A stretch of DNA of 64,000 nt from Planctomycetia bacterium (lineage in GTDB: Bacteria; Planctomycetota; Planctomycetia; Gemmatales; HRBIN36). Numbering within the stretch: position 1 is the first letter of the stretch; every line of letters begins with the position of its first letter. The position numbers were made by a program, and so were the translations under genes. The DNA lies in contig JAEUIE010000008.1 of NCBI GenBank assembly GCA_016795155.1, positions 1 to 64,000 of the forward strand, read 5' to 3'. Shown in pieces: positions 57,401-64,000 of this stretch. The notes below the pieces were generated by a model that saw only the letters and a list, made by a program, of their open reading frames with translations, was not told the DNA's origin and did no database searches.

Positions 57401-59353
57401 TTACTTTTTCACCTCAAACTCCGCATCGACTACGTCGTCCTTGCCTTTGTCGCCTGCGGGGGAGGCGCCGCCTGGGCCAGGTTCAGCGCCGGGCTGGCCC
57501 TGTGAGCCCTTGTAAAGCTGTTGCGACATCGCGTAGCTGGCCTGCTGCAGGGCATCCAGTGCCTGTTTCATGGCTGCCACGTCTTCGCCCTTGGCTTCGG
57601 TGCGAACTTTCTCTATCGCACTGGTGATGGGTGCCTTATCGTTTTCCGCCAGCTTGTCGCCCATATCCTTGAGCAGTTTCTCGGTTTGATAAGCCATCTG
57701 TTCGCACTGGTTGCGAGTCTCAGCCAGTTCGCGTTTCTTCTTGTCGTCAGCGGCATGCAACTCCGCATCTTTACGCATCTTGTCGATCTCGGCAGCATTG
57801 AGACCTGAAGATGCTTCGATGCGAATCTTCTGCTCCTTGCCGGTACCCAGATCCTTGGCACTCACATTCAGGATACCGTTGTGATCGATATCGAATGCCA
57901 CCTCGATCTGCGGCGTGCCTCGTGGAGCAGGGGGGATGCCATCCAGATTGAAGATGCCGAGCATCTTGTTGTCTGCAGCCATCTCCCGCTCGCCTTGAAA
58001 CACCTTGACGGTAACCGAAGGCTGGCTGTCTTCTGCGGTCGAGAAGACATTCTTCTTCTGGCAAGGAATAGTCGTGTTGCGTTCGATCATCTTGGTCATC
58101 ACGCCACCCAGGGTTTCAATACCCAGGGAAAGCGGAGTGACGTCGAGTAGCAATACTTCCGACTTGGCGCCAAGCAGAAGCTGTGCACCCTGGATCGCAG
58201 CGCCGATGGCAACCACTTCATCAGGATTCACGCCTCGGTGAGGTTCCTTGCCAAAGATTTCCTTCACCACCTGCTGCACGCGCGGAACACGGGTCATACC
58301 ACCCACGAGTACGACTTCGTCGATCTCGCTGGCTTTGAGGCCCGAGTCCTTCAGTGCCTTCAGCACCGGTGCCTTGCAGCGTTCGATCAGATGTTCAGTC
58401 ATCTTCTCGAACTGAGCCCGGCTCAGCGACAGTTGCAGGTGTTTCGGCCCGCTCGCATCTGCAGTGATGAAGGGCAGATTGATTTCGGTATTGGCCTGCT
58501 GCGACAGATCCTTCTTGGCGCGTTCGGCAGCTTCCTTCAGTCGCTGCATGGCCATCGGGTCTTTACGCAGATCAATACCCTGCTGTTTCTTGAATTCATC
58601 AGCACACCAGTTGATGAGGACATCATCCCAGTCATCACCACCCAGGTGGGTATCGCCATTAACCGATTTCACTTCGAAAATGCCATCGCCTACATCGAGG
58701 ATGGAGATATCGAACGTACCACCACCCAGATCGAAGACAGCAATCTTTTCGTTCTTCTTGCTATCCAAGCCATAAGCCAGGGAGGCAGCAGTAGGTTCAT
58801 TGATGATACGCATCTTCTGCTTGATCATCTTGCCATCTTTACCTTCAATCTCCCATTCGGGATCAAAGCCTGCAATGACAGCAGCATCAATGGTCGCCTG
58901 GCGCTGAGCATCATTGAAGTAGGCAGGCACGGTGATAACCGCCTTGCGTACCTTGTGGCCCAAGTAGGCTTCAGCAGCTTCCTTGAGTTTGCGGAGGACG
59001 AGCGCGGAAATTTCAGGAGGCGTCTGTGTCTTGTCGCCTACCTGAACCTTGACGAGATCATTGGCGCCGCCAACAATCTGGTAGGGAACCAGCTTCTCTT
59101 CCGATTCCACTTCGTTATGTCGGCGACCCATGAATCGCTTGATCGAATAAATGGTTCGCTTAGGGTTGGTAACCGCCTGCCGCTTGGCAGGGTCGCCCAC
59201 GAGAATGTCGCCTTTGTCAGTAAACGCCACCACGCTGGGGGTGATGCGATTACCTTCCTGATTGGCAATAACCTTGGGCTCGTTACCTTCCATCACTGCC
59301 ACGACGGAGTTGGTGGTACCAAGGTCAATACCTATGATTTTCTCTTCAGCCAT
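57401..59353 (-). CDS. dnaK: Molecular chaperone DnaK (Hsp70)
   Basis: A 650-residue Hsp70 chaperone. The ATPase domain shows [17 protein letters not shown], the Arg-rich [59 protein letters not shown] and [14 protein letters not shown]. The substrate-binding domain has [20 protein letters not shown] and the C-terminus ends in Gly/Pro-rich linker plus [12 protein letters not shown], matching the usual DVxDAEFEE tail. It folds nascent and stressed proteins in the cytosol. dnaJ and grpE are not adjacent, and I see no CIRCE operator in the AT-rich leader, so regulation may be of another type. Confidence 0.97.
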
Positions 59354-61055: not shown

Positions 61056-64000
61056 ATGTCACTGGTCAGAGAACCAAATGCCGAGCCTATTCCAGGGTAT
61101 CGACTCATCGAGCCGCTGGGGAGTGGCGGCTTTGGCGAAGTGTGGAAATGCGACGTCCCAGGCGGCATCTACAAAGCCATCAAATTTGTCTTCGGCAACC
61201 TGCAAGGCTCAGAGAACGAAGCTGTCCGTGCCGAGCAGGAACTCGCTGCTCTCGAACGTGTCAAGAACATCAGGCATCCGTTTCTGGTCAATGTAGAACG
61301 CGTTGAACAGATTGAAGGCGAACTCGTCATCGTCATGGAGTTGGCCGACAAGGACCTTCGCGATCTGCTCAACGAATATCGCGCCAATGGCCAGGTGGGC
61401 ATCCCCCGTTCGGAACTACTCTCCTACCTGCGTGATGCTGCCGAAGCACTCGACCTGATCCACAACCAATACAACCTTCAGCATCTCGATATCAAGCCGA
61501 GCAATCTCTTCCTGGTCAGCAATCGAGTGAAAGTCGCAGACTTCGGACTGGTTAAAGCCCTCGAAGGGCGAGGCAACACCACTAACAGCGGTTTGCTCGG
61601 CGGCATCACACCGGCCTATGCATCACCTGAAACATTCCAGGGCGACCTCAGCAAGCACAGCGATCAGTATTCTCTGGCCATTGTGTTTCAGGAACTGCTG
61701 ACAGGCAGTCTGCCTTTCACCGGCAAAAGCGCTCGCCAGCTTATGCAGCAGCACTGCATGCAGGAGCCTGATCTGAAGCCTTTGCCACCCAGCGACCGGG
61801 CCGTGGTGGCCCGGGCACTTTCGAAAGATCCGCAACAGCGGTTTCCCAGTTGCCTTGATTTCATCGGAGCACTCGTTAGAGCTACTCCCGGCGCCCGCAC
61901 CTGGGCTACGATGGAAGATCTGTTCATCGAGGCAAACGATGAAGAACAGCCTTCAGGCAAATCGCAACTTGCGAAAGCCATCCGGGCTACCCCCGGCGCA
62001 AGGCCCTCGCGACCCGGCCCGCTCCGCCCCACCTATTTAATTGGCTTGGGCGATTACGGCCGAGAAGCTCTGCAGGCTGTTCGCTACCGGATTATTGACA
62101 GGTTTGGTGGGCTCGATCGTGTGCCCTGCTGGAAATACATCTACATCGATTCTGACCCGAAGTCGGTCAACGATGCTTTGACCGGTCCGCCTGAACAATC
62201 CTTCCAGCCTCAAGAAATTTATCACGCGCCACTCAGCGGCGTGGCAGGCTATCGTAAACATCGGCAATCACTCGAACTCATCTCCGAATGGCTGCCTCCC
62301 GAACGCCTTTACAGCATCCCCCGTTCACTCGCCGTTTCCGGGGTTCGTACGCTCGGTCGACTGGCTCTCACTGAGAATCATCTACGCATCGCATCGAAAC
62401 TGAAACGTGATATCCAGGCTCTTCTTGACGTGGATGGCCTGGAACAGACCGCCACTATGACCGGTCTGGAACCAGGCATTGAAACGCCCCAGATTCTGAT
62501 CTTCGCTGCCACAGGCGGAGGTACCGGTAGTGGCATGCTCGTCGACATCGCTTACACCTGTCGTCGCCTGCTTCAGGAACAGGGTATTGGTGAGCAGGAT
62601 ATTTTTGCTTACCTGTTTTGCGGTGCACCGAGCGATCTTTCCACCCCACCCAGCGAAAAAGCCAACACCTACGCAGCACTGGCCGAAATCCATCACTATA
62701 GCCACCCCGATACTTTATTTACCGCCAAGTATCGCCCCGGCATGCAGCTCATGGAAGATTCTGGTGCGCCGTTCCAGAGTGTCTATCTCACTCGAGTGGG
62801 CCGTCGCAGCCCCGGCACGGTTCGCGAAGTCGCGTCCCGCATGGCCAGTTATGTCTTCAACGATCTGGCTACACCCCTGGGACGCATGCTCACTCCGTCC
62901 CGAGTTCAACAGTATGCCAAAATTGGCACCGTCTTCCGCAGTTTCGGTACCTACAACGTCTGGTATCCTCGCGGTTTGATGTTGCGTATCGCCTCCCGCC
63001 AGGCGGTGCAACGGCTCATCCGTCTCTGGCTTCGCGACGATGCTACGCAGCGACATGCCGAAGTGGAACGGGAATGCACAGCACTTCTAAACGAAAATAA
63101 CTGGCAGCCTGAAGCCATGGCCCTGCGTGTGGAACAGGTTGCCATGGAAGAAGCGGGTGGAGAGGGCACGCCAGCCCAGCTCATCGAAAGTTTTTTGGCA
63201 CAACTGGCCCAGCAGGCTGAAAGCGGTTTTGCCCGCAACGAACCTAACACCTGGTGCCGCGATGCCCTTCAGCGTATGCGCGAATGGGCAGGTGGTGCGG
63301 GAACCTCCGGTCCCGGCAGCGATTGGCAACGCAGCAAACTCGACCGACTCTATCTCGATAGCGCTGAAAAGGTAGCAGGTGAATATGCTGCCATCCTCAA
63401 TCGCCCGGCACGTAGGCTCTTTAACACCCCGGGCGACCGCATGGCAATCGCCCATGCTGCTTACGAAAAACTCGGCTTGCAACTCAATGCAATTGTTGAG
63501 AAGTATCAATTGGAAGTAGAGCAACAGCGACATGTCTCGGCACAGAGCCACCAGAAAGTCAGCCAGGCTCTGGAAGATACCCTCGCCGGCGTGAGGAGCT
63601 TCAGCTTCTTCCCTGCCAAGCGCATGCAAAGGCTGTTGCAGCAGTTCCTCGATGCCGTCGTTCACTTCACGCGCGACAGGCTCAAGGAATATACCCTGCG
63701 GGCCATCGAACTGATCTATCGCACCTTGGCGGCACGTATCAGCGAACTGCAGCGCGATCTGAAATTCTGCGGCCAGCGACTCAAGACTCTTGAACAGTCG
63801 CTCATCACCGCTGCCTCGGAACAAGATCTTACCAGCGCCAGCATGGATACTTTCGGTGGAAAATCGAACGACATCTCCTCCTCGCAGATGTCGAGCAGCC
63901 AGATTCTCCGCGATGCCGCCATGGTGCTTGCTTCCCGCATCGTGCTTCCCGAAGGGCAGACCGATCTGGAACAGGCAGCTACCCGCTTCCTTGCCTCAGT
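61056..64000 (+). CDS. Ser/Thr protein kinase fused to a tubulin/FtsZ-like GTPase domain (3' end beyond window)
   Basis: At least 981 residues, still open at the window end. Residues ~15-275 form a complete protein kinase: LGSGGFGEVWKC (P-loop), Lys43 in YKAIKFVF, HLDIKPSN with catalytic Asp145 (Leu replaces the usual Arg before it), DFG at 162-164 and SPETFQGD. After a disordered linker rich in Pro/Arg (~290-325) begins a tubulin-like domain: PTYLIGLGDYGREALQAVRYR and, at 487-493, GGGTGSG, the tubulin/FtsZ nucleotide-binding signature, in FAATGGGTGSGMLVDIAYTC. It matches the tubulin-like family Tubulin_2 in style. Beyond ~760 the protein is helical, with a coiled coil. No membrane segment is seen, so it is probably cytosolic. 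The ATG at 61056 has only a weak ribosome-binding site (AGGG, ~13 bases). Confidence 0.88.
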   Translation, partial: MSLVREPNAEPIPGYRLIEPLGSGGFGEVWKCDVPGGIYKAIKFVFGNLQGSENEAVRAEQELAALERVKNIRHPFLVNVERVEQIEGELVIVMELADKDLRDLLNEYRANGQVGIPRSELLSYLRDAAEALDLIHNQYNLQHLDIKPSNLFLVSNRVKVADFGLVKALEGRGNTTNSGLLGGITPAYASPETFQGDLSKHSDQYSLAIVFQELLTGSLPFTGKSARQLMQQHCMQEPDLKPLPPSDRAVVARALSKDPQQRFPSCLDFIGALVRATPGARTWATMEDLFIEANDEEQPSGKSQLAKAIRATPGARPSRPGPLRPTYLIGLGDYGREALQAVRYRIIDRFGGLDRVPCWKYIYIDSDPKSVNDALTGPPEQSFQPQEIYHAPLSGVAGYRKHRQSLELISEWLPPERLYSIPRSLAVSGVRTLGRLALTENHLRIASKLKRDIQALLDVDGLEQTATMTGLEPGIETPQILIFAATGGGTGSGMLVDIAYTCRRLLQEQGIGEQDIFAYLFCGAPSDLSTPPSEKANTYAALAEIHHYSHPDTLFTAKYRPGMQLMEDSGAPFQSVYLTRVGRRSPGTVREVASRMASYVFNDLATPLGRMLTPSRVQQYAKIGTVFRSFGTYNVWYPRGLMLRIASRQAVQRLIRLWLRDDATQRHAEVERECTALLNENNWQPEAMALRVEQVAMEEAGGEGTPAQLIESFLAQLAQQAESGFARNEPNTWCRDALQRMREWAGGAGTSGPGSDWQRSKLDRLYLDSAEKVAGEYAAILNRPARRLFNTPGDRMAIAHAAYEKLGLQLNAIVEKYQLEVEQQRHVSAQSHQKVSQALEDTLAGVRSFSFFPAKRMQRLLQQFLDAVVHFTRDRLKEYTLRAIELIYRTLAARISELQRDLKFCGQRLKTLEQSLITAASEQDLTSASMDTFGGKSNDISSSQMSSSQILRDAAMVLASRIVLPEGQTDLEQAATRFLAS

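Follow-up and report, generated by a model that had tools for sequence, protein, structure and literature searches.

The 64,000-nucleotide window analysed here (positions 1 to 64,000 of contig JAEUIE010000008.1, from a planctomycete of the order Gemmatales) ends within a gene whose single product joins a Ser/Thr protein kinase to a tubulin-like domain, and it is a member of one of the order's two ancient paralog classes. In the fusions compared, one paralog (P0005) apart, the kinase site has been kept, and the GTP-binding loop of the tubulin-like part is lost or altered in many relatives. The open reading frame starts at window position 61056, remains open to the window end (61056-64000, 981 residues inside the window) and runs on to contig position 64553, encoding 1165 amino acids with no internal stop. 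The features of the gene are listed in the Table.

Table. Features of the kinase-tubulin fusion gene, in window coordinates
Feature	Position	Strand	Evidence or remark
Kinase-tubulin fusion gene	61056..64000, on to contig 64553	+	ATG start; 1165 aa in total
Ser/Thr protein kinase domain PF00069, residues 15-281	61098..61898	+	Pfam Pkinase E-value 4.8e-34; PknB sequence match; kinase fold
Lys43, ATP-binding lysine	61182..61184	+	K in all 93 fusions compared besides P0005
Catalytic loop HLDIKPSN, residues 143-150	61482..61505	+	Non-RD: Leu replaces Arg
DFG 162-164, metal-binding motif	61539..61547	+	Sequence
Linker, residues 282-321	61899..62018	+	Predicted disordered; pLDDT <50 for 280-318
Tubulin_2 (PF13809) domain, residues 328-655	62037..63020	+	Pfam E-value 9.2e-40; structure models
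T1-like loop GLGDYG, residues 330-335	62043..62060	+	Sequence; AlphaFold2 model
T4 loop GGGTGSG, residues 487-493	62514..62534	+	Intact in the window protein
Thr613, near the T7-equivalent loop	62892..62894	+	Asp/Glu in 82/93 fusions at the same position
Helical region, residues 656-981	63021..63998	+	AlphaFold2 models

All of the residues named in a first-pass annotation of this DNA (Lys43, Asp145, DFG at 162-164, GLGDYG at 330-335 and GGGTGSG at 487-493) were found at their places, and PF13809, or FtsZl1, proved to be the right family: the window protein scored 141.3 bits against PF13809 (137.4 bits in a second search), far above the cut-off of 27. Against the canonical tubulin family, PF00091, it scored 14.2 bits, below the cut-off of 33. 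The loop at 487-493 conforms to the GGGTG(S/T)G pattern of FtsZl1 proteins, the kinase lies N-terminal to the FtsZl1 domain on the same chain, and a coiled coil and a mostly helical C-terminal domain, also characteristic of this family, are predicted in the AlphaFold2 models, in which two long helices (795-845 and 853-918) resemble an antiparallel coiled coil. The T7 catalytic motif NxDxxD was not seen in residues 590-660 of the window protein. No obvious transmembrane segment was recognized (the highest 19-residue hydropathy is 1.47), and tubulin-like kinases are classed as cytoplasmic in the section of PMC11032199 that treats them.

For the 981 residues that fall within the window, AlphaFold2 gave a model (mean pLDDT 82) in which the kinase is followed by a disordered linker, then by a Rossmann-like tubulin core and by a long stretch of helices. 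Because a Foldseek search with this whole model listed kinases only, the tubulin part of an ortholog was modelled on its own, using the tubulin and C-terminal part of L098 (from a Gemmatales MAG), which is 42% identical to the window protein across this part, with the window sequence included in the alignment. With this model (pLDDT 86.9, pTM 0.79), the best 50 PDB matches were all tubulin, gamma-tubulin, CetZ or TubZ, with a probability of 1.00 and E-values from 1.1e-5 (best) to 3e-4. On the evidence of the models the tubulin part has the tubulin-superfamily fold, and together with the Pfam domains this bears out the earlier proposal of a kinase and a tubulin-like domain on a single chain. 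In the models of the window protein and its ortholog, the Tubulin_2 domain contains S1, S4-S6, H1, H4 and H5, followed by S7-H9-like elements; after S6, the L098 model has two helices, a strand (312-321) and a further helix, an order that resembles H7-H8-S7-H9. In the description of the FtsZl1 family in PMC2875224, elements past H5 were not confidently placed. Past the H9-like helix, the L098 model continues with a helical insert containing a long hairpin and then with a short alpha/beta end; the small C-terminal alpha/beta segment of the fusion protein lies beyond the window. As a lead only, this segment, with its S8-H10-S9-S10-like order, might complete a tubulin C-terminal domain that is interrupted by the helical insert.

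The kinase had been described as complete, and its catalytic residues are indeed all present, including the Hanks-type invariant K43, E62, D145, N150, D162-G164 and E192, with SPE in place of APE. The description requires one qualification: Arg does not precede the catalytic Asp, and the loop reads HLD instead of HRD, so that the kinase falls outside the RD subclass. HLD was found in all of the fusion sequences displayed except the paralog P0005. The glycines of the Gly-loop, K43, E62, H143, D145, K147, N150, D162 and E192 are kept in 93 of 93 fusions (P0005 excluded), and the mean pairwise identity within class A is 71% for the kinase, 57% for the tubulin domain and 38% for the C-terminus. 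In other proteins, kinases of this subfamily are joined to a degenerate kinase and a PilZ domain, an architecture that fits what is expected of a signalling module. The source genome itself encodes a 957-aa protein (L189:1087-3960) that combines an HLD-type kinase with a second, degenerate one (HLSLNPRN) and with an end that looks PilZ-like when set beside its relatives, L121 and L128; judging from these predicted domains, it is a second architecture of the HLD kinase subfamily.

Four fusions (P0002 to P0005) are present in the source genome, three besides the window gene and on other contigs. A contig scan with a tubulin-only alignment yielded no relatives, and the full-length alignment recovered them. 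Matches to the tubulin/C-terminal profile were found in 111 of the 249 genomes of the class Planctomycetia and, by manual count of the table, in 62 of the 68 sampled Gemmatales genomes, mostly in several copies (up to 4-5 matches per genome); six of the 68 showed no match. Whole-length relatives of the fusion exist across the order, and together with the intact reading frame and the three further same-order frames on other contigs they rule out a frameshift, a chance join or an assembly join as the source of the fusion. The fusion gene looks vertically inherited and near-universal in Gemmatales, and the fusion seems to be confined to the class Planctomycetia. As to unfused proteins, the Tubulin_2 proteins L009-L013 and L015, of which L013 is from the same class and the others are from other parts of the phylum, showed no HxDxKxxN kinase motif in the frames scanned, and a pattern search for the loops of unfused FtsZl1 relatives gave no match. 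The absence of FtsZ, which the first-pass annotation had assumed for planctomycetes in general, holds here: a PF00091 search gave no match in the source genome (13 of 14 control genomes were positive), and across 81 Gemmatales genomes, this one and 80 others, no canonical FtsZ was found, the sole PF00091 match being itself one of the fusion proteins.

The tree covers 94 fusions, P0005 included, and the residue comparison covers the 93 others. Class A, to which the window gene belongs, comprises 43 tree rows (support 100); class B includes P0003 and P0004, and the Pirellulales-type fusions form a separate clade. Since each of the two sampled families has both classes, the duplication is older than the family split. 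L021, from the family of the window genome, and L098, from Gemmatales SKYG27, stand together in the tree on zero-length branches, which supports placing the window genome in this order. In Gemmataceae, class B kinase-tubulins often occur as head-to-tail tandem pairs (L082, L083, L084, L085 and L092), which suggests paired (heteromeric) partners.

Every one of the 37 Gemmataceae class A rows lacks one residue of the T4 loop, position 491, which leaves them with loops such as GGGSSG and SGGSGGM; the only other row with this deletion is class B L082_2. In a tree built without the T4 columns, these 37 rows group as a clade (support 98), and two changes in total account for the deletion; the residue loss in these 37 proteins is therefore one event. 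A shorter T4 loop is no proof that nucleotide binding has been lost. The window protein, its closest relatives, nearly all class B proteins and all Pirellulales-type copies have a loop of full length, and G332, D365, the glycines at 488-489 and 493, and D497 are almost invariant in the fusions. At position 613, which lies near the T7-equivalent loop and may represent the T7 acid of FtsZ, Asp or Glu is found in 82 of the 93 fusions. The window protein and three relatives from its family have Thr there. P0005 of the source genome (L008:7899-11339) is an intact reading frame of 1146 codons in which R replaces the catalytic D, DWG stands for DFG and SESLATG for GGGTGSG. A search of six further family genomes gave no close ortholog of P0005 (best identity 28%), and its features fit a regulatory partner.

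The surroundings of the window gene did not bear out the expectation of vWA, MoxR or membrane partners past position 64000. Downstream lie rplS, trmD and rpsP; upstream are pheA and, two genes away on the other strand, dnaK (window 57401-59353). No vWA, MoxR, GTPase, OmpA-like or membrane partner adjoins the gene, and no vWA protein was found among the scanned neighbours of the paralogs in this genome. The operon with vWA, GTPase and OmpA-like genes that is typical, if not universal, of FtsZl1 was thus not recognized. No flanking gene recurs broadly among the class A loci (13 relatives' loci), the sole flank matches being a second kinase homolog in L100 and ORFs common to the close relatives L103, L104 and L109. 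Just past the window, L005:15919-16695 is a single ORF with a match to a low-molecular-weight phosphatase (LMWPc) followed by a SUI1 match, an unusual fusion.

The kinase-tubulin fusion is not new: as early as 2010, Makarova and Koonin (PMC2875224) reported, in their account of the family, four planctomycete FtsZl1 proteins with an extra N-terminal kinase domain, a report repeated in PMC9871819. The window protein shares with these, as described there, the phylum and the order of kinase, FtsZ-like GTPase domain, coiled coil and helical C-terminus. In contrast to those four proteins, the fusions here form two classes, with at most 4-5 matches per genome, a T4 loss in one clade and a doubly degenerate paralog, and stand apart from any vWA or GTPase operon. 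A 2024 survey of the Planctomycetota kinome (PMC11032199) finds that, for kinases that are exclusively cytoplasmic, no accessory domain is commoner than the tubulin-like one; the architecture it gives is that of the window protein, and its section on these kinases does not analyse their fold, active sites or paralog classes. Paralog classes, T4 loss and a degenerate paralog are likewise absent from the passages on the fusion in the published accounts, and what is new here is the order-wide two-class family, the conservation of its kinase with HLD, the T4 loss in one clade, and P0005. FtsZ, CetZ, TubZ and tubulin share the modelled GTPase-domain fold with this family; unlike FtsZ and tubulin, however, the window protein falls below the PF00091 cut-off, shows no canonical T7 NxDxxD, carries a fused kinase, and has a long helical and coiled-coil region where their C-terminal domain follows directly. 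PknB-type Hanks kinases have the same catalytic core and match the window kinase in sequence, but the window kinase differs from them in reading HLD instead of HRD, in its fusion to a tubulin-like domain and in having no obvious transmembrane segment.

The explanation that we favour, at about even probability, is a cytosolic signalling kinase whose tubulin-like part serves as an assembly scaffold. A cytosolic Hanks-type kinase of the Planctomycetia non-RD ('HLD') subfamily would be tethered flexibly, through the linker, to an FtsZl1-type domain that a coiled coil extends; the tubulin-like domain and the coiled coil together would self-associate or associate with paralogs, assembly would concentrate the attached kinases and set their activity, and the output would be the phosphorylation of targets. 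GTP binding may ancestrally have tuned assembly and have been relaxed in the Gemmataceae branch of class A. Assembly, kinase activation by assembly and the nature of the targets are what we infer, and the modelled helices and homology suggest the scaffolding role. With the kinase strictly constrained and the GTP loop relaxed, phosphorylation is the likely output, and the tubulin part would be a scaffold for assembly or sensing; against this, the tubulin domain is still well conserved in class A. We consider the signalling kinase more probable than the GTP-driven cytoskeletal filament proposed in the first-pass annotation, which would act in shape, membrane remodelling or division without FtsZ and have its assembly or partners regulated by the built-in kinase. 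That filament, which we regard as rather unlikely, is consistent with the tubulin fold, the intact T1 and T4 loops of the window protein, the lack of FtsZ in 81 of 81 Gemmatales genomes and the membrane-remodelling role predicted for FtsZl1 in PMC2875224. It is weakened by the shortened T4 loop of all 37 class A rows from Gemmataceae, by Thr613 where most fusions have Asp or Glu, and by the lack of a vWA, GTPase or membrane partner or any conserved neighbour, and the six of 68 Gemmatales genomes without a match argue against an essential division role. However, the full-length T4 loop in the window protein, nearly all of class B and all of the Pirellulales-type copies implies that GTP may matter in most copies, and a GTP-driven filament with a kinase regulator is possible most of all for class B and the window protein.

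If the tubulin-like domain were an inert dimerisation domain, the protein would be an ordinary kinase, one of the roughly 100 or more that these bacteria have. No other part of the protein is as well conserved as the kinase, and P0005 persists as an intact frame without GTP or kinase motifs, but the near-invariance of the tubulin-domain glycines and acids and the 57% identity of that domain in class A, seemingly above what a passive dimeriser needs, make this explanation improbable. Quite improbable, too, is a mixed kinase-bearing polymer of paralogous kinase-tubulins, including the active-site-dead P0005, which would organise cells lacking FtsZ and, in one class, be GTP-independent and controlled by phosphorylation alone. 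A conflict (defence) or stress-response system such as has been proposed for bacterial tubulin/GTPase/HSP70 clusters, with assembly as a threshold switch and the kinase triggering the response, is very improbable: tubulin homologs are components of GTPase-centred conflict systems (PMC7159879) and dnaK lies nearby, but the gene looks vertically inherited and near-universal in Gemmatales, its neighbours (pheA, dnaK, rplS, trmD and rpsP) are housekeeping genes, and no effectors or neighbours are conserved.

Gemmatales are known for their elaborate internal membranes and, on the evidence of the 81 genomes searched, shape and divide their cells without FtsZ. With several kinase-tubulins in most of their genomes, the kinase site kept and the GTP loop decaying, this family is a candidate for connecting signalling with the organisation of the cell. 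The conserved loss of a T4 residue in 37 of its proteins offers a natural test of whether GTP is dispensable for a working tubulin fold.
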